Positions 20,394-62,212 of a stretch of DNA of 64,000 nt are shown piece by piece. A program made the position numbers and the translations under genes. The notes beneath the pieces are model-generated. The model saw only the letters and a list, made by a program, of their open reading frames with translations. It was not told where the DNA came from and searched no databases. Each line of letters begins with the position of its first letter. Positions within the stretch are counted from its first letter, which is position 1. Origin of the DNA: a virus; IMG/VR virus record IMGVR_UViG_3300030107_001603, positions 1 through 64,000 of that record, one strand, 5' to 3'.

Positions 20394-23300
20394 ATGGATA
20401 ACTTACAGTATTTACATAATACATTACTTGATTATAAATTATTAGATAAGAGTTTTGAAGAGTTTAAGACAGCTTCTTCAGATAAAACTTATCAACAAAA
20501 AATATTTCAAGAAACTTCTAGTAGAGGTATGTTCGATGGATCATTTGTAGATTTTCAAAACAAATACTTTCCTATACAAGCTGCTGCTGTTACTCCAACA
20601 ACTACTCCTAAAACAAAATCCAAATCTAAAAAGAAAGAAGAAGAAATTACAATTTCTGAACAAGAAGAAATTAATGCTAGAGAAAAATCTATTAATTCTA
20701 ATTTTTGGAAAAATCAAAGTTATAAATCACCTAGTCGAGGTACAGTTGCTGTAAGTAGAGAAGATTATTATCAAGAAGATGGTAAATGGTTTTATAAAGA
20801 TCCTATAACAAGTGACGTTAAAGAAATTACAAAAGGAGATCATTTTGAAGAGCTTAATAACGAGGAAGCGAGATATAGAAATAATCTCCTTAACATAAGA
20901 AATCAAAAAGAACTTAGATCAAAAGGATTACATATTGATCAGGAGCCTAACGTTAAAGATTTAAACGAGGATGGAACTCCAAAATACTGGGGAGGTGAAA
21001 AAGTAGGTGACAAACCCTTCTTAGGAGATAAATTTAATAAAGATCTTAGTGATTTTAGAAAGGCTAGAAAAAAACTTAAAACATCTCAAAAAGGATCAAC
21101 TGTAAGCGGTAAGGCTTTAGAGATACAACAAAAAGTAAAAAAAGAAACTTCTAGTTATAACAACAAAAGGAAAGATTTAATTGTTAAAATAAATGAAGCT
21201 GAGGATGGTAGTAAAGAAAAATTAAACTTACAAGAAGAATTAAAAAACTTAACATCAGAACACAAATCTAAAATCGGTGGTATAGATAAGGAAGAACGTA
21301 AAAGAAGTGGATTTAAAAACATGCCTGTGATTACTGAAGAGCTTATAGACATGGATGACAACGAAAGTCTAGAAGTTTTTTACGATAAGTATAAACAATA
21401 TGGATTTAAATTCGCGGCAGACGCGTGGTCGGGTGACGAAATAACAGTTACAGCTCCAGTTGATTTAGATGGAGACGGTAAATTAGACACTAGAACTTTT
21501 AGTGTTGATCACTGGTCTTCTTCAAGAGACAAGCAACAAGCAGAGGATATGGACACGTGGATGCGTGAAAGAGCTGTTGATATGGGAAGTAGGATAGAAG
21601 GATTATATTATACAACCGCGTTAGACGAAGAAGACAAAAGAGACAATGCGATTAAAACAGAGTCGGAGGTTGTCGAGATGATAAATAGAGAAAGAGAAGG
21701 TCGGGAACACATGGAAATGGAGGACATTCGGGGTGGTGGAAACGCTGTATGGTTAGAAGCACCGACAGGTGGTGGTAGTTGGTATAATAGAGATACTGGT
21801 GAGATGGGACCTTGGCAACCATCTATGAATGAGAAGCAAACTTTCATAGATCCTATTTATGGAGATACCATTGAATTATCTACTGGAGGAAGCGTTCTTG
21901 ATGATAGTAGAAGTTATGGAGAGAAAGAAGAATTTGTGGATAAATACAGTTTAAACGAGAATAATCCAATTTTTAAAAATGCTGTTGAAAACGCTGCTTT
22001 TGCAAGAGTTAAAGAAAATTATCCAGAATTAAAAGATCTAGATAATGGAGATATATTCAAGTTTCACAAAGACAAGTTTGAAGAAGCTAAACTAAAAGTA
22101 AAAGAAGAGTGGGATAATTTAACTGGAATGGATGTTGATGATTACGATCCAGATAATCATCTAAATGAAGAGGAGCTTGAAGCACTAAAAGAATCAGAAG
22201 TATACAAACAACTTGTAAAGACAGCTTCCTATGTTAACCAAAAAGAAATTATAAAGGAACGTGTTTCAGACGAAATAGAAAACATGGGTGGTGGTGAATG
22301 GTTTGGGATGTTTGCAAGAGGTGAATCTCAAGAAAAACTAGCTAAAGAAGTAGGAGAAGAGGTAGAAAAATATCAAGCTCGAATAGATTATATAAATAAT
22401 AGTTCGGATGTTTTAGGTGCGGAATTAGAAAGGATAAAAGGAGATGGAAAAACCTTTGGTTTAGAATATGAAGCTAAATGGCTAAAAGAGAATGAGGGAA
22501 AATTAAAAAATAAAATACAAGAAATTCAAAGTAAGTTTGACAGGGGAGAGATAAATGAAGATCAAGCTAATGCTGAGATATCAAGTTTAATAGAAGAATT
22601 TAATACTCATTACGATAGATACGAGAACATGGTACATAACCAATCAGCTTTAGCTGAAACAGCTATTTCTCTACAATTAGAAGCTGAAGATGTTCTTAAA
22701 AAAGAAGATGACTTAAAGACTATAGTAGATGTATTAAAAAGAAACCATCAATGGGGCACTCAAGTAGTAAACTCTCTAGGTCACGCAACCATAGATTTAC
22801 TACAGGGATTATCGTCAGCCGCGGAAGGTCTTCTTTATTATGTAAATCCATTTGGTAGACTAGGAGATTATCTGGTTCAATCAGGAGCCATTGAAAATGA
22901 AGTATTAAAAGCCTTTGTAGATGTTGGTCAGTACGCAACCGGAGTTGGTGATGCGTCAGAGCGTTTTGATGACAATCCAACTACTACATCATACTCAGAA
23001 TGGATACATGGAAAGATAGATGGATGGCAAGAGTCTAACAAAGCTTTAGTCCAAGAACCTCCTAAATTTGGTGATATACAATCTTTTTCTGATTTTGGAG
23101 AATGGGCGGGGGTTATGATGGGTAACCAAGCTCCTCAACTAGCGTTAATGTTCGCTACAGGTGGACAGTCGGCTTGGATTCAAGGTACTTTAATGGCCGC
23201 GACAGCCGGTGGGCAAAAGTTCATGGGAATGGAAGAGCAGAAAAAACTATATGAAGAATCAGCTGGGCTTTACGGTAACAACTTCAATTTTGATCAAATG

Positions 23301-26300
23301 TTTTGGAGTAGCGCTGCGGTTGGTTTAGCAGAGTCTTTATCTGAAAGAGTTACATTTGGGCAAATCAAAGGCGTTAATCGAATGTTAAAAGCAAACCCAG
23401 GTGCTAGAGAAGGCTTTACAAAGTACCTACGAGATGTGGTGTTTACTAAGGATTATGCTAAGTTTGTCGGTAAGGGTGTTTTAGATTTAGGGGAAGAAGG
23501 TCTTTCAGAAGTTTTAGCTACAATGTCTGAGAATACTATTGATATTATGAACGGTGAGGATGTTGGTATCTTTGATAATATTGCGGAGTCTTTTATTAGT
23601 GGAGCTTTAATATCTCAAACTATTAAAATGCCTGTTATATTCAACCAAATGTACGCTCCTTTTGCTAGTCCTGATAACAAAAGCATTATAAACGCAGCGG
23701 ATATGAGAATTAGAGAGTTAACTAATCTTATATCGGTAGGTAGACCTAGTAAGGATGCTACTAGAGAAGAGATTGAAAAATGGGAGGTACAAGAAGCTAA
23801 GTATATAGAGGAAATAATAAAACTTGGACGAGACAAAATGGAAGCTATTTCTTACGACGTCAAGAGAGTAAACGCGATGGACTCGCCTCAAGGTAATAAA
23901 GATAAGAGAGAGTTATTAGATATACATAAAGATCAAAGAAAAATAGAGAAAGAATACAACGAGGTTAAAAACGATAAGAATTTAAACGAAGGTATTCGTT
24001 CGGTAAGACTAAAAGAATTACAAAACCAATACGGCGCTAATAACACTAGAAAAAGTAACATACTAGGTAAATACACTCCAGATATAGTAGACAGACGTTA
24101 CGAAAAAGACGTAGAGTCAGCTAGACAGAGAGCAGAGGAATTAAAAGAATTAGATGGTACCCAGGTAGATATACAAGAAGGAAATGACCGTAGCTTTTTA
24201 GATTGGTTAATGAGTAACGACGGTTATGAAGTTCTTAGAGATGATGCCGGGGAAATGGTTGGGGTTAAGTTAGATAAGAAAACTATAAAAGGTTTAAAGA
24301 AACAAAATCAAGAGATTTTAAATAACGAGAAATCTTCAGAACAAGATAGATACCAGGCTGAGCAAAACATAAAAATGCTAGATGATGTTAGTAGAGCTAC
24401 TGAGGGTAGGCAAGACTTAGGGTTTTTAAGTATGGATAGGTTTAAACAGTTGACAGGGCAATCAATGAATTATGGTGCTCAATTAACTGAGTTCGATAAC
24501 GACGGTAACATGAAGGGTCAAAAGATATTTATAAACAAAGCTAGATCTCTTGATGCTGGGAAATTCTATACAGCTACACACGAGTTGCTACACGGGATAT
24601 TATTCCAAACATTAAAGAGAGATCCAGATACTCAAGAGGCTCTTGGTAACGCCGTGTTAACAGCTTTAAATAATAAAGGTGTTGTTATACCTCCGAAGTT
24701 ACAAGCGCGTATAGATCAATATTCAAAACAAGAAGGTAAAGGAGAAGAGATAATGACATTGTTGTCTGAGGCTATAAGAGAAGGTGATGTAAAACTACCT
24801 GGTCAATCTCTTAGGGTTCTTAAAAATTTCTTTAGAGGATTGTTCCAAAGAGACACGAACAGAGATATATCTTTTGATACAGACGAAGACGTGATAAACT
24901 TCCTTGGAAATTATTCCTACTCAATGAAGTACAACAAAGAAAACAAAGCTATCACTAGAATGTGGTCAGAAGGAGCTGGAGGTAAATTAATAGAAGACGC
25001 TAAAGCTAAGTATAACGCTAAAGTAAAGAAGAATAAACCTACTGTTGGTGAGGCAAACTTCTCTAAAAACGTAGATCAAGAATTAAATAACAATCCAGAT
25101 CTTTTAACTGAAATAGATGCGTTTGTTAAAAATGAAGATGGAACACCTAAATACACAGATAAAAGTGTTTGGCAAACGTCTACAGATTTTGTCGATGCTT
25201 GGCAGTTAATTACGCAGAGTAAGAAGTTAGATGGTTTGATTCAAGCTGGTATGGTAGCAGAAGGTGTTAACACACCTGAAGCGTTAAGAGATTTCACTAG
25301 AAAAGTTAAAGACGAATTAGGAGAAAGATTATTAAAGAATTTTGATCCAGCTAAGAATGATAGTTTATTCGGTTGGTTAACTGGTGTTTCTGGTGGTATG
25401 GGCAAGTCAATCATATACAGAGCTAAGGGTGATGTGATGAACAAGTACTCTAAAGAAATAAAAGCTGTATCTATAGATAGAGGAATGACAACGGAAGGAG
25501 GAGATACTTTCTCATCTCAAATAGAGGGAGAGGTTGATACTGAAATGGAGAGACTAGAAACTGAAGATCTTACTATTGGTGAAAAGACAGTTAAGAAATC
25601 TGATATAGATGTTATATTTTTAGAAAGCGTTAATACTGATAAAAGAATTGTAGAAGCTATTAATGGTGTTATAGACAGCGCAGGAGTTAATTTAGAGGGA
25701 CTAACTTATAATGGCACTAAAAAGAATATAATACAACATGATGGTGGCAAGCCTAAATCTCAGCGTAAACCGGTGGGTAAATTATACAAAGTATTAGATT
25801 TAGTTTCTAAGGAGTTTGGTGTGGACCCAATGAGAATTATAAAAGAACAAGACCTAACTAACGCGCAGAGAGTAGAGGCTAGAGAATACATCGAAAATAA
25901 CGCTGAGAAGTTAATTGACATGTTACCAGAGGGTGAGAATAGAAGCGGTGATGCTACGGGTGTTGCTAATACTGTTCTTGGAGAATTTTATATTGAGGGC
26001 GATAGAATATCTATGGCAGAGAGTGGTACTGGGAAAGGTAAGAAATCTCAGACTAAAAGAACTGATATAACTAAAAAAGAATTTATAGAGTTCTTTAACA
26101 AACCAGGCACGAAATCAGATGGAGCTATAAGAGCTTTAATAGTTCAAGCGGCTACAATATCTGCTAATCAAGCTATAAGGTTAAATGCTATAAATAGGTC
26201 GACAGATCCTATGAGTACTATAGCTTTAGTTGGTGATGGTAAATCTGCTATCATGTTTTCCAAGGATGATAAGAAACTTCAACCGCTGGGAGCTATAGAT

Positions 26301-29300
26301 AGAACTTTAAGTAAATACCCAGAAGCTAAAAGTGATTTTTGGGCCAACATAAGAGTGTTCGTTGACCAGAACATATTAAGTACTAGCTTAAAGAGTATTA
26401 AAACAGCTTTAGAAAATACTTTTCCAGAGAAGCAGTTCCCTGAAATATACGAAAATATAGATCAAATTGCTAGATCAATACAACCAGTAATCAAGTCAGT
26501 AAAAACTCCTAAAAAATTTACAGACAAGGTTGCTGAACAGTTAGTCGAAAGGTTAGTTGTTACAAATCAAAACCAATATATAAAAGTAAGAGAATCTTCA
26601 GGTAGTGATATTAGTGCTACCGATGCGTTTAGAGACCCTCAGAGAGTTAAAGAGTATATAGCTACTACAACTTTGTTAGCCAACAAAATGTTTGATTCTA
26701 ACAATTTAGAATTATCTATAGCTAAAATATATTCTTTGAAGGGACATTTAGCTACGATGGGTAAAAAAGGATATTTAAAGAGAAAACAGATATTCCCTGG
26801 CACAACAGAATTCTTAGAAAATACTTTAGGTAAAATACCTGGCATTACATATACGGTTACTAAGACCAAAGGAAAAACTCCAAAAATAGGATTAGACACC
26901 GTAACGTGGACAGACCCTTCTATTGAAGGCGCTAAACCTGTAACGTTTAAAATATCTGATATATTATCTTCGCAACTTTCAACTACTGCTCTTGGGGATA
27001 TTAAGGCGTTTGAAAACGGAGATACGGATAGACTTGATAAACGTGACACAAACGAAGATATAGCTCAAGAAACATTGAACGATATAGTTAAGTTCTATTC
27101 TGACTTATTTAATAATAAGAAAATTGACAACGTAGATTTAATGATGGTTAAGGCATCTCTATTGTCTGGTATGGATTCTATTTTAGGTAGAGCCGGGAAA
27201 TTAACATATATATCGGATGAAGCTAGAGCGTTAATAGAGAGAGATGGGAAAGATGCTAAAGTTAGGTATGAGCACGCTCCACCAAGAGTAGCTGTGATAA
27301 TCAATATGTTTCACGAGCATATCAATGGAAATGGTATTAAAAATGTAAAAGAATACCTTAAAGAGTTCAAGGTACAAATAATTACCCAAGACTTTGATGG
27401 TGTTATTAACGATGCTAAGTACGGTTCTGCTTTACCAGAAGGCACAGATATAAATACTCCTGATATCCTTATAATAAGAAATTATAACGATAGAACAATG
27501 GGAGATCCTAGAGTTGAGTCTATCAAAAATATTAGAACTGGAGAATATGTAGTACCAGCAGAAGCTTTTGTGATGACTAGTAACATGCTTAATAAGAATC
27601 GTAAGAATACGATGAACTTCAGTAAAGCAGTTAACCAAGCTAATACGATTGATGAGAACACTCCTTCAAGAGGAATGAGTGCTTGGGACTTCGATGATAC
27701 TTTAGCTACTACTAAATCTGGAGTTAGAGCTAGAATACCAAATCCAGACGGAACTCCTAAGCCAGGTAGAAAAGTTATATTCTTAGCTGGTGGAGCTGGT
27801 AGTGGTAAATCTAATGTTGTTAAAAAATTAGGATTAGAGAAAAGTGGATTCAAGGTAGTTAACTCTGATATATCTTTAGAGTGGTTAAAGAAAAACTCTG
27901 GATTACCAGAGAACATGAACGATCTTACTAAAGAACAAAGAAGTACTTTAGGTAAATTACAACACCAAGCTAGAGGTATTGCTAAGAGAAAGATGATGAA
28001 GTACCAAGGTAATGGAGATGGAATTGTTGTGGATGGTACCGGTGGATCTTTAAACGTAATGAATAAACAAGTTCAAGAATTTAAAGATGCTGGATATGAT
28101 GTTCAAATGTTATTCGTAGAGACTTCGTTAGATACAGCTTTAGAAAGAAATAAGAATAGAAAGGAAAGATCTTTATTAGATATAATAGTAAGAAAAAATC
28201 ATCACGCAGTACAAGGAAATAAAGAGGCTTTTAAAGAATTATTTGGAGACAACTTCGCGGAGGTTAGTACAGATAATCTAACTATGAAATCACCAATGCC
28301 TCAAACACTAGTTGATAACATAGATAATTTTACCAATAGTTATGAGAACAGAAGATTAGACGCAGAAGAGTTTGCTACTGAAGGATCTAGTATATTAGAG
28401 CAAGGTGGCGAATTTGATTTCTCTGAGTTTAACGTTGTCACAGAAGGTGCTCAAGGACCTATGTTTAAAACAGCTATAGATAGAGCTAAGAAATTTGGTA
28501 CTGAACATACTTACGTTTTAACTGCTAGACCACCAGCGGCAGCTGCACCAATTCAAGAGTTTTTAAAATCTCAAGGATTAGATATACCATTAGAAAATAT
28601 AACTGGATTAGGTAACAGTACTGGAGAGGCAAAAGCTGAATGGATGTTAGAGAAGTTTGCAGAAGGATATAACGACATGTATTTTGCTGATGACGCTATG
28701 CAGAACGTGGAAGCTGTTAAACATGTGTTGGATCAATTAGATATTAAATCTAAGGTTATTCAAGCTAAGATACAGTTTAGTAAATCCATTAAACCTAATA
28801 CAGAGACTTTACTAGAAGGTGTAGATATAGCTCAGACAAATAGTATTAACAAAGTTAAAGATATTAGAAGTCTAACAGACGAAGGTGTTTATAACAACAT
28901 TATGTTCTCTAAAAAACACAGAGGAGAATACGAAAACCTATTATCAAAAAATCGTCCAGAGTTAGTTAAAGAAGGATTGATATCTCAAACGATAGATAAT
29001 ATGTTTAACTATATTGATAGTCTAAACCTTCCTGATAATAAAAAGAGGAAGTACGAGAAGATAACTACTAAGTGGTTAGCTACTAGTAATATAAAACTAA
29101 ACGAAGATTCTTACAAAATCAAAGACGCTGTAGAGTTAGCCGAGAAATATAAAGAAGATATATTCTTTTATAATAATCCTAATGAGATTATAGAAAAATA
29201 CGCTGGTAAAGCTAAAGCAAAACCTACTAATCCAAACAAAGTTGAAGAGTTTGGTAAGGGTATGATTATTAATGGAAAATATAATATTGTAGCCTACGAA

Positions 29301-32300
29301 GTCCAAGACACCGAAGAAGGAATGGCAGCTGTTAGAAAAGTAGTAGATACTCATTTTGGTCCAAAATCTAATCCCTGGTGTATTATTGCTAGAAAAAGTA
29401 AAGATAAGTTGTTAGGTAGAGAAGACGTTATGGATGACGCTTGGCGTAACTGGATGACTTATAGAGACGGACCTAAAAGAATTATATTCCAAGATGGTAA
29501 GTTGATTGCTTTCTATGCAAACGATCAGTATTGGGATAGAATGGATAACCCTACAGACGCTCCGGTTGTTACAAAGAAAGAAGGTAATGTAACTGAAAAA
29601 ATAGAACTTGTACCTACAGGGCAACTTGGTCAAGTCCAAGAGTTTGTTATAGAAAGACGAACTGTTAGTCAAGATAAAAATACTGTTACAACGGAAATTT
29701 TAGCTGAAGGAATGGATGGTTTTGAAGCCGGTACTAAGATTATTGAAAATAGAGTTAAAGGTATAACAATTAAAGAAACATATTACAATCCTAAAGGGCA
29801 GAAAGTAAGCGAATATAATTTTGATAAAAAAGGTGATGGAGTTAATAGCAAAACTTTTACTCCACAAGGTAATATATCATCAGTTAATAAGTACGGTAAT
29901 CCTTTTGGTGAAATGTCTAAGGATCAGATAATTAAAACCAAAGGTGATATAATAGAGAGTCATGGCACCGCTTACAACGTTCGTGAAGCTTACCACGCGG
30001 AAGTTTTGTTTAAAGGTGAAGTAGCAGAAGTTGGAATGGAAATAGGAAAAGATGTTAAAATAGATGATCTTCTTAAAACATCCCCTAATGGTGAAATAAG
30101 ATTAGACCTTAATAAAGTTGTTGAAGCTGATCCAGGCGCTAGATTTATGATACCAGGCCAGACAGCAACTACGTTAGCTGAGACGCTTGGTAAAAAGACA
30201 GATGTACAATTCTCTAAAAAAGCAAGTGATCCATTTAATCTTGGAGAAATAATAAATTCTAATATTCAAAAAGAATTAGATTTAAATAGAGTATTAGAGC
30301 AAACTAAAGGAGTTAAAGCTGAAGCTAGATATTCTGATGCTCAAGCTAAAGTACAAGGAAGTAGAAAGAATCCATGGTGGCAATGGTGGGTTCCGCCATC
30401 TGCTGAGGACTTTAAAGGATTGATATATAGATTTATTGGTAAAGGAAGAATTGGAGAACAGCAAATGGCATTCTTTAAGAAATCTCTATTTGATCCATTT
30501 TCTAGAGCTTACGAAGCTATGAACAACTCTAAACAGAGATTAGAGGGAGAATATAGACAATTGTTAAAAGAATTTCCTGATGTAAAATCTGCGCTAAATG
30601 ATATTGTTATAAGTAACTTTACATTAGGCCAAATGATTAGAGTTTACAATTGGAATAAAGCTGGATTTGAAATACCTGGGTTATCACAAAGAGATTTAAA
30701 CGCTATCATAAAATCAGTAGAAGCAAACGCGGAAACACTAGCATTCGCTAATTCGTTAGGTATGATATCCAATCAAGAAGCTGGATATACAGAGCCAGGA
30801 GATTATTGGATGGTAGAGAATATACAAAGTGATATAAATAAAATAAACAACGAGTTAGACAGGGCTTATCATTTACAAGAATGGAAGCAGAATATAACTA
30901 AGATGTTTGGAGAGTGGAAGGGTGGTAAATTAGACGGTCCTAACATGAACAAGATCGAAGCTGTATATGGTACTCAATTTAGAGAAGCTTTAGAAGATAT
31001 CATATGGAGAATGGAGTTTGGTTCTAAAAGACAACAAGGTGGTAATCGATTGGTTAATAGATTTAATAATTGGGCAAATCAATCAGTTGGTGCTATCATG
31101 TTCTTCAATATGAGATCGGCGTTATTACAAACTATATCTAGTATTAACTATATAAATTGGACTGATAACAACCCATTAAAAGCTGGATTAGCTTTAGCTA
31201 ACGTACCTCAATTTGTAAAAGACTTCACAATGATATTCAACTCTGACATGTTAAAGCAGAGACGTGCTGGAAATCAGAGAGGTATTAACGAAGCTGAGTT
31301 AGCGGAAGCTGTAGCAGGAAATAAGTTCTCTCCAAAAGCTATAATAAACTGGTTGTTAACTAAAGGATTTTTACCAACGCAAATTGCGGATAGTTTTGCT
31401 ATCGCTTCTGGTGGTGCAACTTTTTATAGAAATAGAGTTAACTCATTGTTAAAACAGGGTATGACTCAAGAACAGGCAGAATCAAAAGCTTGGGAAGATT
31501 TTCAGGAGAACACAGAGGAATCACAACAGTCTTCTAGACCTGATATGATATCGCAACAACAGGCTAGTCCATTAGGTAGATATATACTAGCTTTTAAAAA
31601 TACACCAATGCAGTATGCTAGGTTAACGAAGAAAGCTTGGTTAGATCTTATTAACGGTAGAGGAGATGCAAAAACTAACGTGAGTAAAATCATATATTAC
31701 ATGGGTGTTCAGAACTTAATATTCTCCGGATTGCAAGCTGCTTTAGGATCTTTGATTGGAGATGACGATGAGGAGAAAGATGCTAAGACACACGAAAGAG
31801 TAGTCAACTCAATGATCGACAGTGTTTTGGGTGGGTTAGGATTCGGTGGTAACGCTGTCCTAACTATGAAAAATATGATCATGGAGTATAATAAGCAAAA
31901 TAAAAAAGGATGGAACGCAGATCACACTTATACTATATTAAAGTTCTTTAGTTTTTCACCAACAATCGGTTCTAAAGGTAGAAAGTTGTATTCATCTATA
32001 CAGACCGAACAGTACAACAAAGATGTTATAAAAGAAATGAGCATGTTAGATATTGATAATCCGAGATGGTCATCTATAGCTAATCTAATATCTGCTATTT
32101 TCAACGTACCTTTAGACAGGATAGTTAAAAAGGTAGATAATATTGACGCTGCTATTACAGAAGATATAACCGCTATGCAAAGATTTGCTTTGTTAATGGG
32201 ATGGAATACTTGGGATTTAGGTATTGACGATTCTGATATCTTAGCGGTTGAAGATGAGATCAAGGAGAAAAAGGAAATAAAAAGAGAAGAAAAAAAGAAG

Positions 32301-32570
32301 AAAGAGAAAGAGGAAAAGAAGAAACAAAAGGAAATAGAAGATAAAGCTAAAGAAGAAGAGAATAAGAAAAAAGAAGACGGAAGGTGTATTGCTATAGGTA
32401 AGAGTGGGAAGAGATGTAAAAAGAAAGCGGAGTCAGGAGGATACTGTACGATACATGCCAAAGTAGAACAAGGGACGAAAGAAGTTCAGTGTAGTAAGAT
32501 AAAATCTGATGGTAGTAGATGTAAGATGAAAACCAAGGCTAAGAGCGGGTTGTGTTACTACCATGATTAA
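20394..32570 (+). CDS. Giant polyvalent ejected virion protein (metallopeptidase, HAD phosphatase with inserted P-loop kinase, zinc knuckles)
   Basis: 4058 aa. The N-terminus is a short FEEFK/FVDFQNKY repeat-type domain. A Ca-loop-like DLDGDGKLD lies near residue 360 and hydrophobic membrane-active helices near residues 890-1100. HELLH (1396-1400) is a zincin metallopeptidase motif. D2432-x-D2434-x-T begins a HAD phosphatase whose motif II (T2710) and acidic motif (D2766/D2767) come some 275 residues later. In between sits a P-loop kinase, GGAGSGKS at 2466-2473. FSK motifs recur at 1556, 1955, 2409, 2795, 2838 and 3273. A Lys/Glu helix and two Cys3His knuckles close the protein. As the third ejection-block gene it is probably injected with the DNA. 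Confidence 0.8.
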   Translation: MDNLQYLHNTLLDYKLLDKSFEEFKTASSDKTYQQKIFQETSSRGMFDGSFVDFQNKYFPIQAAAVTPTTTPKTKSKSKKKEEEITISEQEEINAREKSINSNFWKNQSYKSPSRGTVAVSREDYYQEDGKWFYKDPITSDVKEITKGDHFEELNNEEARYRNNLLNIRNQKELRSKGLHIDQEPNVKDLNEDGTPKYWGGEKVGDKPFLGDKFNKDLSDFRKARKKLKTSQKGSTVSGKALEIQQKVKKETSSYNNKRKDLIVKINEAEDGSKEKLNLQEELKNLTSEHKSKIGGIDKEERKRSGFKNMPVITEELIDMDDNESLEVFYDKYKQYGFKFAADAWSGDEITVTAPVDLDGDGKLDTRTFSVDHWSSSRDKQQAEDMDTWMRERAVDMGSRIEGLYYTTALDEEDKRDNAIKTESEVVEMINREREGREHMEMEDIRGGGNAVWLEAPTGGGSWYNRDTGEMGPWQPSMNEKQTFIDPIYGDTIELSTGGSVLDDSRSYGEKEEFVDKYSLNENNPIFKNAVENAAFARVKENYPELKDLDNGDIFKFHKDKFEEAKLKVKEEWDNLTGMDVDDYDPDNHLNEEELEALKESEVYKQLVKTASYVNQKEIIKERVSDEIENMGGGEWFGMFARGESQEKLAKEVGEEVEKYQARIDYINNSSDVLGAELERIKGDGKTFGLEYEAKWLKENEGKLKNKIQEIQSKFDRGEINEDQANAEISSLIEEFNTHYDRYENMVHNQSALAETAISLQLEAEDVLKKEDDLKTIVDVLKRNHQWGTQVVNSLGHATIDLLQGLSSAAEGLLYYVNPFGRLGDYLVQSGAIENEVLKAFVDVGQYATGVGDASERFDDNPTTTSYSEWIHGKIDGWQESNKALVQEPPKFGDIQSFSDFGEWAGVMMGNQAPQLALMFATGGQSAWIQGTLMAATAGGQKFMGMEEQKKLYEESAGLYGNNFNFDQMFWSSAAVGLAESLSERVTFGQIKGVNRMLKANPGAREGFTKYLRDVVFTKDYAKFVGKGVLDLGEEGLSEVLATMSENTIDIMNGEDVGIFDNIAESFISGALISQTIKMPVIFNQMYAPFASPDNKSIINAADMRIRELTNLISVGRPSKDATREEIEKWEVQEAKYIEEIIKLGRDKMEAISYDVKRVNAMDSPQGNKDKRELLDIHKDQRKIEKEYNEVKNDKNLNEGIRSVRLKELQNQYGANNTRKSNILGKYTPDIVDRRYEKDVESARQRAEELKELDGTQVDIQEGNDRSFLDWLMSNDGYEVLRDDAGEMVGVKLDKKTIKGLKKQNQEILNNEKSSEQDRYQAEQNIKMLDDVSRATEGRQDLGFLSMDRFKQLTGQSMNYGAQLTEFDNDGNMKGQKIFINKARSLDAGKFYTATHELLHGILFQTLKRDPDTQEALGNAVLTALNNKGVVIPPKLQARIDQYSKQEGKGEEIMTLLSEAIREGDVKLPGQSLRVLKNFFRGLFQRDTNRDISFDTDEDVINFLGNYSYSMKYNKENKAITRMWSEGAGGKLIEDAKAKYNAKVKKNKPTVGEANFSKNVDQELNNNPDLLTEIDAFVKNEDGTPKYTDKSVWQTSTDFVDAWQLITQSKKLDGLIQAGMVAEGVNTPEALRDFTRKVKDELGERLLKNFDPAKNDSLFGWLTGVSGGMGKSIIYRAKGDVMNKYSKEIKAVSIDRGMTTEGGDTFSSQIEGEVDTEMERLETEDLTIGEKTVKKSDIDVIFLESVNTDKRIVEAINGVIDSAGVNLEGLTYNGTKKNIIQHDGGKPKSQRKPVGKLYKVLDLVSKEFGVDPMRIIKEQDLTNAQRVEAREYIENNAEKLIDMLPEGENRSGDATGVANTVLGEFYIEGDRISMAESGTGKGKKSQTKRTDITKKEFIEFFNKPGTKSDGAIRALIVQAATISANQAIRLNAINRSTDPMSTIALVGDGKSAIMFSKDDKKLQPLGAIDRTLSKYPEAKSDFWANIRVFVDQNILSTSLKSIKTALENTFPEKQFPEIYENIDQIARSIQPVIKSVKTPKKFTDKVAEQLVERLVVTNQNQYIKVRESSGSDISATDAFRDPQRVKEYIATTTLLANKMFDSNNLELSIAKIYSLKGHLATMGKKGYLKRKQIFPGTTEFLENTLGKIPGITYTVTKTKGKTPKIGLDTVTWTDPSIEGAKPVTFKISDILSSQLSTTALGDIKAFENGDTDRLDKRDTNEDIAQETLNDIVKFYSDLFNNKKIDNVDLMMVKASLLSGMDSILGRAGKLTYISDEARALIERDGKDAKVRYEHAPPRVAVIINMFHEHINGNGIKNVKEYLKEFKVQIITQDFDGVINDAKYGSALPEGTDINTPDILIIRNYNDRTMGDPRVESIKNIRTGEYVVPAEAFVMTSNMLNKNRKNTMNFSKAVNQANTIDENTPSRGMSAWDFDDTLATTKSGVRARIPNPDGTPKPGRKVIFLAGGAGSGKSNVVKKLGLEKSGFKVVNSDISLEWLKKNSGLPENMNDLTKEQRSTLGKLQHQARGIAKRKMMKYQGNGDGIVVDGTGGSLNVMNKQVQEFKDAGYDVQMLFVETSLDTALERNKNRKERSLLDIIVRKNHHAVQGNKEAFKELFGDNFAEVSTDNLTMKSPMPQTLVDNIDNFTNSYENRRLDAEEFATEGSSILEQGGEFDFSEFNVVTEGAQGPMFKTAIDRAKKFGTEHTYVLTARPPAAAAPIQEFLKSQGLDIPLENITGLGNSTGEAKAEWMLEKFAEGYNDMYFADDAMQNVEAVKHVLDQLDIKSKVIQAKIQFSKSIKPNTETLLEGVDIAQTNSINKVKDIRSLTDEGVYNNIMFSKKHRGEYENLLSKNRPELVKEGLISQTIDNMFNYIDSLNLPDNKKRKYEKITTKWLATSNIKLNEDSYKIKDAVELAEKYKEDIFFYNNPNEIIEKYAGKAKAKPTNPNKVEEFGKGMIINGKYNIVAYEVQDTEEGMAAVRKVVDTHFGPKSNPWCIIARKSKDKLLGREDVMDDAWRNWMTYRDGPKRIIFQDGKLIAFYANDQYWDRMDNPTDAPVVTKKEGNVTEKIELVPTGQLGQVQEFVIERRTVSQDKNTVTTEILAEGMDGFEAGTKIIENRVKGITIKETYYNPKGQKVSEYNFDKKGDGVNSKTFTPQGNISSVNKYGNPFGEMSKDQIIKTKGDIIESHGTAYNVREAYHAEVLFKGEVAEVGMEIGKDVKIDDLLKTSPNGEIRLDLNKVVEADPGARFMIPGQTATTLAETLGKKTDVQFSKKASDPFNLGEIINSNIQKELDLNRVLEQTKGVKAEARYSDAQAKVQGSRKNPWWQWWVPPSAEDFKGLIYRFIGKGRIGEQQMAFFKKSLFDPFSRAYEAMNNSKQRLEGEYRQLLKEFPDVKSALNDIVISNFTLGQMIRVYNWNKAGFEIPGLSQRDLNAIIKSVEANAETLAFANSLGMISNQEAGYTEPGDYWMVENIQSDINKINNELDRAYHLQEWKQNITKMFGEWKGGKLDGPNMNKIEAVYGTQFREALEDIIWRMEFGSKRQQGGNRLVNRFNNWANQSVGAIMFFNMRSALLQTISSINYINWTDNNPLKAGLALANVPQFVKDFTMIFNSDMLKQRRAGNQRGINEAELAEAVAGNKFSPKAIINWLLTKGFLPTQIADSFAIASGGATFYRNRVNSLLKQGMTQEQAESKAWEDFQENTEESQQSSRPDMISQQQASPLGRYILAFKNTPMQYARLTKKAWLDLINGRGDAKTNVSKIIYYMGVQNLIFSGLQAALGSLIGDDDEEKDAKTHERVVNSMIDSVLGGLGFGGNAVLTMKNMIMEYNKQNKKGWNADHTYTILKFFSFSPTIGSKGRKLYSSIQTEQYNKDVIKEMSMLDIDNPRWSSIANLISAIFNVPLDRIVKKVDNIDAAITEDITAMQRFALLMGWNTWDLGIDDSDILAVEDEIKEKKEIKREEKKKKEKEEKKKQKEIEDKAKEEENKKKEDGRCIAIGKSGKRCKKKAESGGYCTIHAKVEQGTKEVQCSKIKSDGSRCKMKTKAKSGLCYYHD

Positions 32571-33249: not shown

Positions 33250-33464
33250 TGTGGGATTTATTTAAAGATAAAAACGAGATCAACGAAAAGAATATAATAG
33301 GATTTGCTTCTTTTATTCTTATGGTTATGTTTGCTTTAACAGATCTAATAACAGGTTTTTGTGGTCAAGAACTTGTAATAAACAATACAATATATAATTC
33401 TTTTGTTTTTGTAACATTAGGATGTTTCGGGATTAGTTCCTTTGAAAAAATTAAAAAACAATGA
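33249..33464 (+). CDS. Two-span membrane protein, putative holin
   Basis: 71 aa with two hydrophobic segments, about residues 16-36 (IIGFASFILMVMFALTDLI) and 46-64 (IYNSFVFVTLGCFGISSF), and a short charged C-terminus. Size and hairpin topology fit class II holins. It is coupled to the upstream thioredoxin-fold gene by a TAATG overlap and its stop overlaps the start of the next gene. It is the best holin candidate of the block. Confidence 0.6.
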   Translation: MWDLFKDKNEINEKNIIGFASFILMVMFALTDLITGFCGQELVINNTIYNSFVFVTLGCFGISSFEKIKKQ

Positions 33465-36061
33465 AGAAAATTTTATTTTTATTATTATTACCTTTAATAA
33501 GTTTTAGTCAAACGATAAATACATTTCCATGGATTTATGACTTTGAAAACGCTATAGGTTTAGAGCAAGACACAACTAATGATAGAGACTGGTGGTTAAA
33601 TCAAGGCCCAACAAGTTCTCAATTAACAGGTCCGCAAGGAGATCACACGACAGGCGGTGGAATATATTATTATGCGGAAGCGTCAACCAGTGGTATAGGT
33701 TTTCCAAACCAAACGTTTATAGCGTACACTCCTACTTTTGATATATCACAAACTCCTGGCAAGGTTTTATCTTTCTGGTATCATATGGCTGGATCAACAA
33801 TGGGAGATTTAGAAGCGGGTTATATAGATAGCAATGGATACACATCGTTAGGTATTATATCTGGTAACCAAGGTAATAACTGGAAATTTGCTTATTATCC
33901 TATAACTGCTGTTGATTCTTTTAAAATACAATTTACAGCAACTACTGGTAGTTCTTTTTACAGTGATATATGTATAGACGATATAATGGTTAGTGATCCA
34001 TTTACAGTTATATTCGGTTGTACAGACACCGTGTCTTCAAATTATGATTCTACAGCAACACATGATGATGGTAGTTGTATTTATTATTTTGGTTGTATTG
34101 ATCCCACGGCTACTAATTACAATCCTTGGGCAAACGTAGATGATGGTAGTTGTGTTCAGAATGTTACCTGTGATTCTACAGAATCTTTAATTGATGTAGC
34201 TATAAAATTAGATAATTGGCCTAGTGAAACCTCTTGGGAAGTTGTTGCTGACGGTGTTGTTATTTACTCTGTTCCTTCTGGAACTTATGATTACACACAA
34301 ACAGGACAAACTGTACACACACAAGTTTGTATACCGGTTGGAGATACTATAATATTTACAATTAACGATACTTATGGAGATGGAATTGGAGGAGGTTCTG
34401 TTGTAGGAGGTTGTTTAGTAACTAATATAGATTGTGAAGATACTATATTCTTGCTAAATCCACCAAACTTTGGATACACAGCATCGTCTAATCCTTATGT
34501 ATCTGACATGTGTAGTAACGATACTATAATATACGGATGTACTACTCCGTCTTATTTAGAATATGATTCGTTAGCAACAGTAGATGATGGTAGTTGTATG
34601 ACATTAGCCACTTATGGTTGTACTGATCCAGCGGCTTTTAACTACGATCCAAATGCTGATAGAATATTGTTAACTTCTCCTTGTACTTATGATTTAATAC
34701 TATACGACGATGGTGGAGATTCTTGGGGAGCTTGTTGGCTAGGTGTTGAACAAGGAGATTCCTTGTGGCAATTTAAAATAGATCAAAATGGAGTATATTC
34801 TGACACGTTTGCTTTAGAACTTAATTCTTATGATGAGGTATATTTTTACTACTTTGAAATACCTACGCCTCAACAGAACGCTCAACAATTAGATATACAA
34901 ACAATACAAAACTCTTTTAAAGTAGAGAATTCTTTTGGAACTATAATACACGAAGGTAACAATCCTTGGCCTGGTCCAAATGAAAATAAATTAAGAAATT
35001 ATAGAAGTGCTTTAGATATTTATGAAGCACAACCTTATTGTGGAACCGAATGTATACCTGTAGTTATGGGTTGTATGGATACTCTGGCTTATAACTATAA
35101 CAGCTTAGCAAACACTAATGACACATGTTATTATAATCCTGGTTGTACAAATCCTGGTTATTTAGAATATTACACTCAAGGTTTTATTGCTGGAGTAGAT
35201 GACGGAAGTTGTGTTACGTTAGCGGTATTCGGATGTATGGATAGTACAGCGTTTAATTATGATACTACGGCTAATGTAGATAATGGTGGATGTGTTCCTG
35301 TTATATATGGATGTATGGAAAGTCTAGCTTTTAATTATAATCCTAATGCTAATACTCCTGATACGTGTATAGCGTACTTATACGGTTGTACAGATCCTAC
35401 AATGTTTAATTATAATCCATTAGCTAATACAGACGATGGGAGTTGTATTGAGTTTGTATATGGATGTATGGATTCAACAATGTTTAATTTTAATCCTTTA
35501 GCAAATGCTCCTAGTAATCTCGTTCCTTGTATTCCTTATATTTATGGTTGTACTGACCCGAGTATGTCCAACTATAATTCAGAGGCTAATACAGAAGATT
35601 TCAGTTGTATACCATTTATTTACGGGTGTATGGATTCTACTGCTCTTAACTACGATTCAACTGCTAATACAGACAACGGTTCTTGTATCGAGATTGTTAC
35701 AGGTTGTATGGACCAAGGCGCTTGGAACTACGATGTCTTGGCGAATGTCCACGATACTAGCTCTTGTCTTTACGACGCTGGTTGTATTACTGGTCCTGGT
35801 AATCCTTATTGGTTAAACGACCCTTGTTATGAATGGGTAATATTAGTAGATGATTATTGTTGTGAGAACGCTTGGGATACTATATGTCAATTAACTTATA
35901 ATCATTGTGATGGAACTTGGTCAGGGCCATTGCCAAAAAGATTTAATAAAGAATTATTAATGGTTACCGATATATTAGGTAGACCAGCAAAACCAGGTAA
36001 TAATAAAATATTGTTCTTTATATATAGTGATGGAACAGTAGAAAAGAAATTAACAAAATGA
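33461..36061 (+). CDS. Secreted 13-repeat protein with MAM-like domain and T9SS-type C-terminal domain
   Basis: 866 aa. The signal peptide MKKILFLLLLPLISFSQ is typical of Bacteroidetes. Next comes a MAM/jelly-roll-like domain (WIYDFENAIG to residue ~180), then 13 Cys-bounded repeats of the form GCTDPTATNYNP...DDGSC, one interrupted by other beta domains. The final ~40 residues (VTDILGRPAKPGNNKILFF, then YSDGTVEKKLTK) resemble the type A sorting domain that marks proteins for type IX secretion. Such proteins are usual in marine flavobacterial genomes, so host-derived capture is likely. It sits in the lysis/export block with overlapping starts and stops. Confidence 0.75.
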   Translation: MKKILFLLLLPLISFSQTINTFPWIYDFENAIGLEQDTTNDRDWWLNQGPTSSQLTGPQGDHTTGGGIYYYAEASTSGIGFPNQTFIAYTPTFDISQTPGKVLSFWYHMAGSTMGDLEAGYIDSNGYTSLGIISGNQGNNWKFAYYPITAVDSFKIQFTATTGSSFYSDICIDDIMVSDPFTVIFGCTDTVSSNYDSTATHDDGSCIYYFGCIDPTATNYNPWANVDDGSCVQNVTCDSTESLIDVAIKLDNWPSETSWEVVADGVVIYSVPSGTYDYTQTGQTVHTQVCIPVGDTIIFTINDTYGDGIGGGSVVGGCLVTNIDCEDTIFLLNPPNFGYTASSNPYVSDMCSNDTIIYGCTTPSYLEYDSLATVDDGSCMTLATYGCTDPAAFNYDPNADRILLTSPCTYDLILYDDGGDSWGACWLGVEQGDSLWQFKIDQNGVYSDTFALELNSYDEVYFYYFEIPTPQQNAQQLDIQTIQNSFKVENSFGTIIHEGNNPWPGPNENKLRNYRSALDIYEAQPYCGTECIPVVMGCMDTLAYNYNSLANTNDTCYYNPGCTNPGYLEYYTQGFIAGVDDGSCVTLAVFGCMDSTAFNYDTTANVDNGGCVPVIYGCMESLAFNYNPNANTPDTCIAYLYGCTDPTMFNYNPLANTDDGSCIEFVYGCMDSTMFNFNPLANAPSNLVPCIPYIYGCTDPSMSNYNSEANTEDFSCIPFIYGCMDSTALNYDSTANTDNGSCIEIVTGCMDQGAWNYDVLANVHDTSSCLYDAGCITGPGNPYWLNDPCYEWVILVDDYCCENAWDTICQLTYNHCDGTWSGPLPKRFNKELLMVTDILGRPAKPGNNKILFFIYSDGTVEKKLTK
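34016..35767 (+). repeat. Thirteen Cys-rich GC-D-P-NYNP-DDGSC protein repeats
   Basis: Repeats of roughly 20-25 residues begin GC and end (D)GSC or C. Conserved N-Y-(N/D) and A-N-x-D-(D/N) positions look like a Ca-binding, disulphide-closed turn. Copies 3, 4 and 6 are spaced by longer insertions. DNA copies are diverged, so the array is old or under protein-level selection. Confidence 0.8.
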
Positions 36062-40078: not shown

Positions 40079-41944
40079 TTAAGTTACTTCACAATTTCCA
40101 CCCGCACAAGCTAATTCACCTGATAGATCCGTGTTGTCTTCTAATTCTACAACTTTAGATAAATCTACATCGTGCAAGGTTTTAGTCATGTCATCATATT
40201 TTTGTTTTGTTGTATCCTCAAATGGAGCTTGTACGTAAGTACCTCCGTCATAAGGTAGAACAGACAAACCGTTATAATGATTACGGTTTTCCCACATCCA
40301 TTCTCCAGCTTTTTCCCATTCATTTTCTTTTAAAGATACTGTAGCTGAAACGTTATGAGAGTTTGAACCGGTCTTATGACCAGGTTTAACCCATTCGGTT
40401 GCTACTTTTTTAATTCTCTCTAATAAGTCCATAAACTTTTCAGTTCTAATAATAGAACCTTTTGGAGCTTTTTGTGGAATACTAATCACAGCTGTATCAT
40501 GCGGTCTGAAGTAATCATCTTCTAGCAATTCAGGGTGATTAATTTTTAGATAAGTATATATAGCTTCGTTTTTACCAACACGAAGTCTACGTATATAATA
40601 TCTATTGTGCCAAGCGTGTATACCTGATGAAGTCCCTAAAACTAAGGATGTTGTTCCTGCTGGTTTAACTGTTGTTGCTCTAGCGGCAGGTTTAATACCT
40701 ATAGTCTTAGATACCATTCGATTCATCATCTTTACATGATCAGCAGCTTCATTCATATTTAGTTTAAGAACCTTGCCAGAGGCTATACCTGTCATTGACA
40801 CTCCTATAAGAGCGTCTTTTTCAGTGGTCTCTTGCCAAACTTCTCTTAAATAATGAAACTCTGTATAACCAGCTTGTAACGTTCCTATAAAAGCAGCTGC
40901 AGTGACTCTATTGTTTAACTCATCTTGAGTCTCTACATCAGAAACATTTACTTCGCATAAGTTACAAAATTGGAATGGACGTAATGCTATTTCACAACAG
41001 GGATTAGTCCCCCAATCTTTATCGTTATTAAAATATATACCAGGTTCACCAGAACCAGATAGCTCTATACGTTTCCATAAGTCCATAAAAAACTCTTTAG
41101 TTATTTTATGTCTCATAAGTACCGCTGAGTTATTAGCTCTACCTCTTTGTGGGTTTGTTTCCCACCAAGATCCAGATTTAGCAGATATCATTTCTTCATC
41201 ATACGCGGAAAACAGCGATATAAGAGCTGCTCTACGAATACCGCCTGCGAGTACGGCATCAGCGATATGACAAACGATATCATGTACTTCAAGGGACGAT
41301 AATTTTTCTCCATCTTTTTTTGCATCTAATATTCCTTTGATTTTTACTAAACATTCTCTCAGTGGTTGCGGTCCAGGTGCTTTTCCTCCAGAGGTCACAA
41401 GACGTGCTCCCTTAGGCCTAATATCCGAATAATCAAATTTGATCTTAGATGATCTCTTAGAGCCCAAATAAGACTTGATTAAAACTTTTATTGCATCTGA
41501 CCAACCCTCAATGCTATCACCAATAACAAACCTACGTTTTCTAACGTTGTGTGGTTTGATTATTTCTGGTAATTTTTTTATATTATGTAATTGGACTGAG
41601 TAACCCACGCCACAACCAGAAAGAAGTAAAAACATGCACTCACTAAAGCTATCAATATGATCAATAGGTAGGTAAGCGCAGTTGTATAATCTATTTGGAG
41701 AGATTTCAATTGGTTTACCACCAAATTGAAGACTACGCATAGACGGTAAAACTTTCTTTTCATAAACATATTTGTAATAGGTATTTATATCATTTTCTAA
41801 ACTTGGGTATTTACGAATGTGCATTGCTTTATTACGGTCAACCAACTCTTCCCAAGTTTCTCTTCGTTGTAACTCAGGAATAAACTTTGCATATTTCATA
41901 TGCACTGTAATATCCGAGAGTATTTCGTTGTTTAACTCGCTCAT
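40079..41944 (-). CDS. nrdJ: Adenosylcobalamin-dependent (class II) ribonucleotide reductase
   Basis: 621 aa, monomeric NrdJ type. It reduces ribonucleoside triphosphates to deoxy forms using a B12 cofactor. Key residues are spaced as in the Lactobacillus enzyme: redox Cys89 (NCAYL), thiyl-radical Cys316 and Glu318 in NPCCE, and partner redox Cys327 eleven residues on (FQFC). The C-terminal shuttle pair is Cys613/Cys618 (CAGGNCEVT). It supplies dNTPs for phage replication and needs host cobalamin. Its start overlaps the stop of an upstream 48-residue gene (TAATG). Confidence 0.93.
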   Translation of the reverse strand: MSELNNEILSDITVHMKYAKFIPELQRRETWEELVDRNKAMHIRKYPSLENDINTYYKYVYEKKVLPSMRSLQFGGKPIEISPNRLYNCAYLPIDHIDSFSECMFLLLSGCGVGYSVQLHNIKKLPEIIKPHNVRKRRFVIGDSIEGWSDAIKVLIKSYLGSKRSSKIKFDYSDIRPKGARLVTSGGKAPGPQPLRECLVKIKGILDAKKDGEKLSSLEVHDIVCHIADAVLAGGIRRAALISLFSAYDEEMISAKSGSWWETNPQRGRANNSAVLMRHKITKEFFMDLWKRIELSGSGEPGIYFNNDKDWGTNPCCEIALRPFQFCNLCEVNVSDVETQDELNNRVTAAAFIGTLQAGYTEFHYLREVWQETTEKDALIGVSMTGIASGKVLKLNMNEAADHVKMMNRMVSKTIGIKPAARATTVKPAGTTSLVLGTSSGIHAWHNRYYIRRLRVGKNEAIYTYLKINHPELLEDDYFRPHDTAVISIPQKAPKGSIIRTEKFMDLLERIKKVATEWVKPGHKTGSNSHNVSATVSLKENEWEKAGEWMWENRNHYNGLSVLPYDGGTYVQAPFEDTTKQKYDDMTKTLHDVDLSKVVELEDNTDLSGELACAGGNCEVT

Positions 41945-42090
41945 TATTTATTAAGTGTTAGGCATGCATCCACGAATGGTAGATATAATACGTGATTTGT
42001 TTTCTTTCTTTCATCGTAAGATCTAAATCCTACGCATATACCTGGGTAAAACCCAAAGCTTAATTCCCATTTATTTTTTATTTTTGCCAT
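41944..42090 (-). CDS. 48-residue conserved-looking small protein
   Basis: ATG at 42090 to TAA at 41944. The product is MAKIKNKWELSFGFYPGICV, continuing to HVLYLPFVDACLTLNK. The stop overlaps the reductase start (TAATG) and the start overlaps the end of the resolvase gene, which supports translation. It looks aromatic and beta-rich. I do not know its function. Confidence 0.6.
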   Translation of the reverse strand: MAKIKNKWELSFGFYPGICVGFRSYDERKKTNHVLYLPFVDACLTLNK

Positions 42091-60643: not shown

Positions 60644-62212
60644 ATGGAATACAATCTACCTAGCGAGATTGTCAAAGACTTAAACTTTGGCGATTCCGCT
60701 AAACAACGAATTATTAAAGGAGTAGACAAATTAGCACAAGCTGTTAAATCTACTCTAGGAGCCTCTGGAAAGTGTGTAATATATGAAGATGCACGAGGCA
60801 AACCGGTTATCACAAAAGACGGAGTAACAGTAGCAGAATCTGTTGTCTTATATGATCCGGTTGAAAACATGGGTGCTACTCTTATTAAAGAAGCAGCTAG
60901 AAACACAGTAAAAGAAGCTGGAGACGGAACAACAACAGCAACTGTTTTAGCTGAAGCCCTAATTAAAGAGGTCAATAAAAGAGAATATATTGGCAAAACT
61001 ATTAGAGAAATTAAGGAAGGAATTAACTCAGGTTTAGAAAAAGTTAATAAATACCTCAAAGAAAACGCTCTTGAGATCAAAGGAGACATGCTTCAGAGTG
61101 TTAGCGCTATTAGTTGTAACAATGATTTAGCCCTTGGAAAAATTATATCAGAAGCTTATGAAAAAGTAGGGAAAGACGGTGTTGTTCTGATGGAGGGATC
61201 AGAAACTGAAAATACTTACGTTGAGATAGTCGACGGAGTACAAATAGAATCTGGACTTACATCACCACACTTCGTTACTGACACAGACAAACAAAGGTCT
61301 ATATTGGAAAATCCATTAGTTCTAATAGTAATGTCAGAAATCCCAAATGTTAGAAAGATACAAAACGTATTAGAATTTGCTATTAAGAACAACCGATCTT
61401 TACTTATAGTAGCTCCAGTAGCACAGCAAGTAAAATCGGCGCTTTTAATGAATAAAGTTAAGGGTAATATTAAAGTAAATATTATAGACCCACCAGGATT
61501 TGGTCCAACTAAAAAGGACACATGTGAAGATTTAGCTATATTAACTGGTGCTACGGTAATTAACGAAGAACTAGGAGATGATTTAGATGGTATATCGTTA
61601 AATATTTTAGGAGAAGTTGAAAAATCAGTTACAGATAGTAAAAATACTGTTTTAACTACTTCAGATACAACAGAAGATGTTACCGAAAGAATAGAAGAGG
61701 TAAAGAAGTTAAAAAAGAAAGAAAAGAATGGTTTTCTTAAGAAACAAATAGAACAAAGATTAGCAATGCTTTCTGGCTCTGTAGGAGTAATAAAAGTAGG
61801 CGCTGACTCTAAAGTAGAATTAAAAGAGAAGAAAGATAGAGTAGAAGACGCAATATATGCTACAAAAGCTGCATTAAAGGAAGGTATTGTTCCGGGCGGT
61901 GGGATTGCATTGTTGAATGCTTCTCAATGTATAGAGCCTGAAAACGTTGGAGAAAAAATACTGTTAAACGCAATTAAAGCACCGTTCGTAACAATACTAC
62001 ATAACGCTGGTATAGAAGATTATGAACTTCCGAATGTTAAAGGAATGGGAATTGACGTTATTAGTGGCGAAATGGTAGATATGGTTAAATACGGCGTTAT
62101 CGATCCAGTATTAGTAACAAAATCAGCGCTAAAGAACGCAATTTCCGTAATTAACACTATAATTTCCGCAAATTGTGTGATATCTAATATAAGAGTAAAT
62201 GAAAGCAGTTAA
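60644..62212 (+). CDS. groEL: Phage-encoded GroEL-type chaperonin (HSP60)
   Basis: 522 aa, somewhat shorter than cellular GroEL (~548). Equatorial and hinge motifs are plain: STLGASGKCVIYED, PVITKDGVTVAES, KEAGDGTTTATVLAEA (nucleotide-binding Gly-Asp-Gly-Thr) and the C-terminal EGIVPGGGIALLNA. The apical domain (VDGVQIESGLTSPHFVTD) is diverged. The C-terminal GGM repeat is absent. It probably folds phage structural proteins in place of the host chaperonin. The next gene, GroES-like, overlaps its end by 14 bases. Confidence 0.92.
   Translation: MEYNLPSEIVKDLNFGDSAKQRIIKGVDKLAQAVKSTLGASGKCVIYEDARGKPVITKDGVTVAESVVLYDPVENMGATLIKEAARNTVKEAGDGTTTATVLAEALIKEVNKREYIGKTIREIKEGINSGLEKVNKYLKENALEIKGDMLQSVSAISCNNDLALGKIISEAYEKVGKDGVVLMEGSETENTYVEIVDGVQIESGLTSPHFVTDTDKQRSILENPLVLIVMSEIPNVRKIQNVLEFAIKNNRSLLIVAPVAQQVKSALLMNKVKGNIKVNIIDPPGFGPTKKDTCEDLAILTGATVINEELGDDLDGISLNILGEVEKSVTDSKNTVLTTSDTTEDVTERIEEVKKLKKKEKNGFLKKQIEQRLAMLSGSVGVIKVGADSKVELKEKKDRVEDAIYATKAALKEGIVPGGGIALLNASQCIEPENVGEKILLNAIKAPFVTILHNAGIEDYELPNVKGMGIDVISGEMVDMVKYGVIDPVLVTKSALKNAISVINTIISANCVISNIRVNESS

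Follow-up and report, generated by a model that had tools for sequence, protein, structure and literature searches.

A virus record of 67.6 kb from an uncultivated marine phage (IMGVR_UViG_3300030107_001603), whose first 64,000 nucleotides were analysed here and are called the window, carries one ORF of 4058 codons (20394..32570, on the plus strand, as are all features of this gene given below). It encodes a giant polyvalent protein of 4058 aa, a predicted polyprotein, with homologues in IMG/VR loci (L numbers below). The tripeptide FSK recurs along this chain between apparently different domains, which raises the question of whether these sites are joints between modules, whether they are cut, and by which enzyme. 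The first-pass annotation had read them as proteolytic cleavage sites or a module-joining linker, and had named the HELLH peptidase of the same chain as a possible processing enzyme.

The giant protein and its FSK sites

The giant ORF belongs to a tailed-phage structural operon, in which the large terminase, the portal and virion structural proteins are encoded upstream of it. Unrelated domains, namely a zincin motif, a Pnkp-like HAD/kinase, a helical domain and zinc fingers, stand together in this one large phage-encoded chain, and this make-up as well as the structural context agree with a polyvalent protein. No LPD family appeared in Pfam scans of the giant protein and its homologues; such domains are common but not obligatory in polyvalent proteins. 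Elsewhere in the window we observed a protein of 866 aa, possibly an adhesion or tail protein, which begins with a MAM domain (E=3.9e-18) and is encoded shortly after the giant gene (33461-36061, plus strand), a phage-encoded GroEL-like chaperonin (60644-62212, plus strand; PF00118, E=1.6e-50), and a protein at 40079-41947 on the minus strand that matched B12-dependent ribonucleotide reductase models only in parts.

A sequence scan found FSK at residues 1556, 1955, 2409, 2795, 2838 and 3273, preceded in that order by N, M, N, Q, M and Q, and nowhere else in the 4058 aa, in agreement with the sites first reported. From the composition of the protein, 0.97 occurrences were expected (P(>=6) = 5e-4), and each of the five remaining letter orders of F, S and K occurred 0-1 times. 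Moreover, a homology breakpoint lay no more than 25 aa away from five of the six sites (P = 0.0025). Two corrections apply to the earlier picture: the 2795/2838 pair spans only ~40 residues, and a seventh FS[KR] (PFSR at 3369) lies in the conserved C-terminal domain rather than at a joint. Together with EFSK in the HAD domain and IFSKE in the C-terminal domain, PFSR belongs to the ordinary conserved residues of folded domains.

The six sites divide the chain as follows. The N-terminal segment with the metallopeptidase (residues 1-1555; 20394..25058) has no joint tags before the peptidase and is predicted to be a single piece up to joint 1; FS[KR] is at background before HExxH in the family. 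Joint 1 (FSK 1556, aNFSKN; 25059..25067) has the equivalent site QFSR in L001, the first homologue (33% identity), and MFSK in L003 and L080, and is followed by a possibly sigma-factor-like module of residues 1559-1954 (25068..26255). Joint 2 (FSK 1955, iMFSKD; 26256..26264) is MFSK in L001, L003 and L080, and the module behind it (residues 1958-2408; 26265..27617) has no function assigned. Joint 3 (FSK 2409, mNFSKA; 27618..27626), SFSK in L001 and MFSK in L003, lies before the HAD domain close to a breakpoint at 2405, and opens the polynucleotide kinase/phosphatase-like module (residues 2412-2794; 27627..28775). Joint 4 (FSK 2795, iQFSKS; 28776..28784) is homologous to what we call the last joint, which carries FS[KR] in 71 of 126 readable proteins. 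A short spacer of ~40 aa (28785..28904), delimited in the sequence, separates it from joint 5 (FSK 2838, iMFSKK; 28905..28913), which is QFSK in L027. Next comes an optional module (residues 2841-3272; 28914..30209), present in L027 and L101 and absent from L001, L003, L004, L007 and L080, and then joint 6 (FSK 3273, vQFSKK; 30210..30218) at the start of the conserved C-terminal part. The latter consists of a helical domain and two DUF5763-like Cys/His fingers (30219..32567; Pfam DUF5763). We observed the two finger-like repeats at the extreme C-terminus (residues 3998-4058; window 32385-32567), the first of which matches DUF5763, and Cys-containing triplets of finger type (CKM, CKN, RCK) were enriched across relatives.

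For residues 2412-2794, Pfam gave AAA_33/Zeta_toxin, and the best Foldseek matches were Pnkp1 (4xrp, E=1.5e-6), bacterial Pnk (4gp6) and T4 Pnkp (2ia5/1ltq). A P-loop kinase and an HAD phosphatase thus occur in one module, as in T4-type Pnkp. The HAD/kinase of the first-pass annotation can accordingly be described as a T4-Pnkp-like kinase/phosphatase with the kinase inserted within the HAD domain; the insert is missing in L001. In the module of residues 1559-1954 we noticed a stretch (FDPxKNDSLFGWL...YRAKGDVM) resembling sigma-70 region 2, and sigma factors were among the weak Foldseek matches for the model that included this module. One homologue of the module matched Sigma70_r2 (E=1.6e-5), and the window copy gave no Sigma70_r2 match. 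The module could be an ejected sigma-like factor.

AlphaFold2 models were made for residues 1255-1985 (mean pLDDT 73, pTM 0.38) and 2395-3345 (66 and 0.37). In these models, FSK 1955 begins with the first residue of a disordered stretch (1955-1973), FSK 2795 is inside another (2793-2819) and FSK 3273 inside a third (3250-3311). The sites at 1556, 2409 and 2838 are four to seven residues from a disordered stretch, with FSK 1556 placed 7 aa after a low-confidence segment and FSK 2838 placed 4 aa after a disordered one. FSK 1556 and 2409 are at predicted helix starts, which counts against a cleavage reading.

The zincin-like metallopeptidase domain covers approximately residues 1345-1515 (24426..24938). 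We confirmed HELLH at 1396-1400 (24579..24593) in the window protein as its putative zinc-binding and catalytic motif, and HExxH was invariant in the homologue alignments and found in all giant proteins except a few, mostly contig-truncated. E1452 (24747..24749), conserved in at least 90% of aligned homologues of the main peptidase class (class 0), is a candidate third zinc ligand of gluzincin type, while class-1 peptidases have an invariant E of DE(Y/F) downstream of HExxH in their alignment. Peptidase_M78 gave weak Pfam matches in two homologues. The AlphaFold2 model covering the peptidase, of moderate confidence, had no PDB match in Foldseek, which leaves the zincin fold putative. Alignments of divergent peptidases held no stretch usable for searching, and the closer class-0 alignment retrieved few new loci as query.

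FS[KR] at the module joints across the family

We examined 139 non-redundant giant proteins from uncultivated phages (104 first and 35 later); for the C-terminal domain, IMG/VR contains at least 583 relatives. Among isolated phages, searches by DNA similarity and tblastn found no close relative of the giant protein; the matches were a weak C-terminal one to Tenacibaculum phage Gundel_1, whose 2483-aa protein is without recurrent FSK, and kinase-domain ones. Matches to species genomes comprised five MAG contigs, of which four are from Bacteroidota and the fifth bears the label Aliivibrio. From these few host-genome matches we tentatively regard marine Bacteroidota as hosts of the phage family, the link being tentative because the matches are MAG contigs.

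In proteins with the main peptidase class, the density of FS[KR] before HExxH was 0.35 per 1000 aa, compared with 0.28-0.43 for its letter permutations. From HExxH to the last joint it rose to 2.26 per 1000 aa against 0.23-0.32 for the permutations, and after the last joint it was 0.81 per 1000 aa, to which the conserved folded-domain occurrences contribute. The enrichment of FSK-type motifs at domain borders, a test suggested by the first-pass annotation, is therefore above chance in the homologues, with joint-region FS[KR] at 7-9 times its letter permutations and the excess limited to the stretch that follows the metallopeptidase and ends where the C-terminal domain begins. The density of [KR]FS was also raised, because KFSK is common. 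In favour of chance, or of a biased composition of this K-rich protein, some FS[KR] are ordinary conserved residues of folded domains; as an explanation of the joint sites we hold it to be extremely improbable, given the permutation controls, the regional density, the position at breakpoints and the concerted change of tags described below.

Alignment ends of homologous proteins also gathered at the motif. The number of HSP ends within 5 aa was 3.47 at FS[KR] and 5.05 at [QMNK]FS[KR] against a background of 0.77, an excess of 4.5 and 6.6 times, respectively, and F[KR]S, [KR]SF, SF[KR], LS[KR], IS[KR] and FS[DENQ] were at background. L001 carries FS[KR] at the equivalent joints despite different flanks. 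Residues 2795-3273 of the window protein are missing in L001, L003, L004, L007 and L080: the BLAST alignments of these five homologues break off at 2797-2821 and are resumed at 3271, with FSK 3273 two residues further on. The units gained or lost extend exactly from one FSK to another. The consensus of the tags, [VI]-[MQK]-F-S-[KR]-[STAD], is alike at internal and last joints. Taken together, tag density, alignment ends and module gain and loss strongly support the earlier view that the motifs are module joints, and a motif repeated at the joints of a protease-bearing chain is what a self-processing polyprotein would have.

Concerted change of tags and the peptidase class

Where the HAD/C-terminal joint lacks FSK, many proteins use another tag at several of their own joints. 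We found FSET/FSES at six sites in L114, KFKR at four sites in L052, MFSR[DE] at four in L020, FSRS at four in L055, S[EQ]NP (SxNP) at four in L116, RSx[ND]PS at three in L018, LNESK at two in L074 and QQSR at two in L027, as well as a SIEY tag in L225 and a RSIKY tag in L245. Exact-tripeptide recurrence was only modest for FSK (106 observed and 85.5 expected), so that a similarity-based test was needed. Therefore, two non-homologous joints (before the HAD start and after the HAD tail) were compared without reference to any motif, within the same protein and after shuffling. The same-protein similarity was 18.77 compared with 15.03 for shuffled pairs (sd 0.36), a value that 0 of 5000 shuffles reached. 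The result was similar for proteins whose last joint has no FSK (18.11 compared with 13.67, sd 0.48; 0 of 5000 shuffles) and was replicated with new sequences only (19.08 compared with 14.38, sd 0.66; 0 of 5000 shuffles), and control windows a few dozen residues from the joints gave no within-protein signal. The residues preceding and following FS[KR] likewise matched within a protein more often than expected (38 compared with 20.4 and 44 compared with 18.2, respectively); the choice of K or R within FS[KR] was not concerted inside a protein. That the joints of a protein are alike, flanks included, indicates that each protein likely has one reader of its tags.

Such a reader need not be a protease. 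The tags could stay uncut and act as docking motifs or structural caps, for instance in unfolding and refolding at ejection, with one reader per phage; a common reader would suffice for the concerted change, and some sites are at predicted helix starts. We consider this unlikely, since disordered joints between separately gained domains and the limitation of tags to the region after the peptidase fit cutting better, and no reader is known for docking motifs. The protease sites suggested by the first-pass annotation explain the tags best, since single proteins make concerted use of tags that differ from protein to protein; cleavage itself, the enzyme, its action in cis, the scissile bond and the timing we infer.

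The codons of the tags bear on their origin. Given that module gain and loss falls exactly at the tags, these could be recombination scars, left where modules were pasted via DNA micro-homology, with the tag as functionless copied DNA. However, the tags of one protein draw on the two serine codon families and on various synonymous codons, and pairs agree in codon family no more often than by chance. Of 48 proteins with at least two tags, 34 mixed AGY and TCN serine codons, and 71 of 154 tag pairs had the same serine codon family (82 expected). Concerted sets are mixed too: the six FSET serine codons of L114 were TCT, AGT, TCT, TCA, AGT and AGT. The tags have thus converged at the protein level, and the mixture of serine codons between sites indicates selection on the protein sequence, leaving a scar origin very unlikely.

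We then compared tag type with peptidase class. Proteins with an HExxHxxD peptidase (class 1) have few or no FSK and often RSxNPS. FSK per protein was 0.62 in them compared with 2.05 in the others (p=1e-4), and FSK was lacking at the last joint in 16/21 compared with 39/105 (p=0.0014), both values being without phylogenetic control. Four class-1 loci fetched later served as a blind test, and three of them had RSxNP-type tags: L166 and L169 carry RSxNPS-type tags at joints and L170 has SSANPS at the last joint; L167 has none. On the tree of the C-terminal domain, the peptidase class changed at least 11 times, and phylogenetically independent pairs ran in the same direction (~4:0) without reaching significance, being too few (median p 0.125). 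L010, L011, L022 and L023, which have the HExxHxxD peptidase yet keep FSK at the last joint, count against the association, as do some class-0 proteins with few tags. L022 and L023 also have RSxNP at another joint and may be intermediates of a tag switch.

This co-variation bears on which protease would read the tags. Instead of the internal zincin, a host enzyme or a phage protease of prohead type could cut them: prohead proteases elsewhere cut many head proteins at short motifs (SPN3US gp245, PMC10052503), and the co-variation of tag with peptidase class is not significant under phylogenetic control. Against a general head protease, FS[KR] was absent from all other structural ORFs of the window, as it would not be if the motif were shared by the substrates of a prohead protease, and a scan of ten structural ORFs in the window recognised no such protease. 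Moreover, tags begin only downstream of the internal peptidase, tag type differs between peptidase families, and a host enzyme would leave the lineage-specific tags unexplained. We therefore assign a low probability to an external protease. The earlier proposal of the HELLH peptidase as the enzyme stands as plausible rather than proven, in view of the near-universal HExxH, the tags confined to its downstream side, their absence from other structural ORFs and the tracking of peptidase class.

Proposed processing and known systems

On the preferred reading, the giant protein is probably a polyprotein cut at FSK-type joint tags, most likely by its own zincin (HELLH 1396). It would be made as one chain; its domain make-up and its position among the structural genes suggest that it is probably packaged with the DNA and ejected along with it. 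[V/I]-[M/Q/K]-F-S-[K/R]-[S/T/A/D] would be the recognition tag of the processing protease, with the zincin working in cis or on sister copies. Cutting would release seven pieces: the N-terminal part with the peptidase, a possibly sigma-like module, the domain with no function assigned, the Pnkp-like module, the ~40-aa spacer, the optional module and the C-terminal domain. Elsewhere in the family, the tags of a lineage have shifted as a set, in part along with the peptidase family (FSK, FSET, KFKR, RSxNPS, NESK, SIEY and others). As a more tentative extension, each lineage might carry its own protease/site code, in which the peptidase and all tags switch together and modules are tagged cassettes released separately in the host. 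Virion mass spectrometry, proposed earlier as a check, would give ambiguous semi-tryptic ends at FSK, because trypsin itself cleaves after K.

If this processing takes place, dsDNA phages use polyprotein logic, and one ejected chain brings in several enzymes, among them an apparent nucleic-acid repair enzyme. The tags would then also serve to divide further giant proteins of the family into their functional units, and the family, with its many relatives of the C-terminal domain, offers a natural set of matched protease/site variants.

No published description of such FSK tags was found in the open-licence literature. For polyvalent proteins, Iyer et al. (2017; PMC5512222) suggested processing by their metallopeptidases and predicted transfer with the DNA; the text gives no cleavage motif and contains no FSK or FSR. 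The present protein resembles theirs in being a multidomain phage protein of very large size that includes a zincin-like metallopeptidase, and differs in having no LPD family by Pfam. Sites, their concerted change and a link to peptidase class are described here, so that the prediction of 2017, which lacked sites, now has candidate cut sites and a product list. JC1 gp69 (PMC9144972), a Bcep22-like protein of DarB type with 4516 aa, shares the giant size, HExxH motifs and the position as last large gene of the virion module, and differs in its C-terminal LPD38, which takes the place of the C-terminal domain of the window protein. It is virion-associated by mass spectrometry, and by analogy with this single precedent the giant protein may be delivered into the host. 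When JC1 gp69 was considered for FSK use outside the family, it had a single FSK without recurrence. SPN3US gp245 (PMC10052503) is a separate, trans-acting prohead protease that cuts several phage proteins at a short motif, mostly removing N-terminal propeptides, whereas the window protein has repeated tags inside one chain beside its own zincin. With T4 Pnkp, the window protein has in common a P-loop kinase and an HAD phosphatase, which here form one module of a giant protein with the kinase inside the HAD domain. RNA-virus polyproteins carry an internal protease and its cognate sites at domain joints, and the sites and the protease co-evolve. The likeness to these is one of functional analogy only, as the window protein belongs to a dsDNA phage and would use a metallopeptidase instead of a Cys, Ser or Asp protease.
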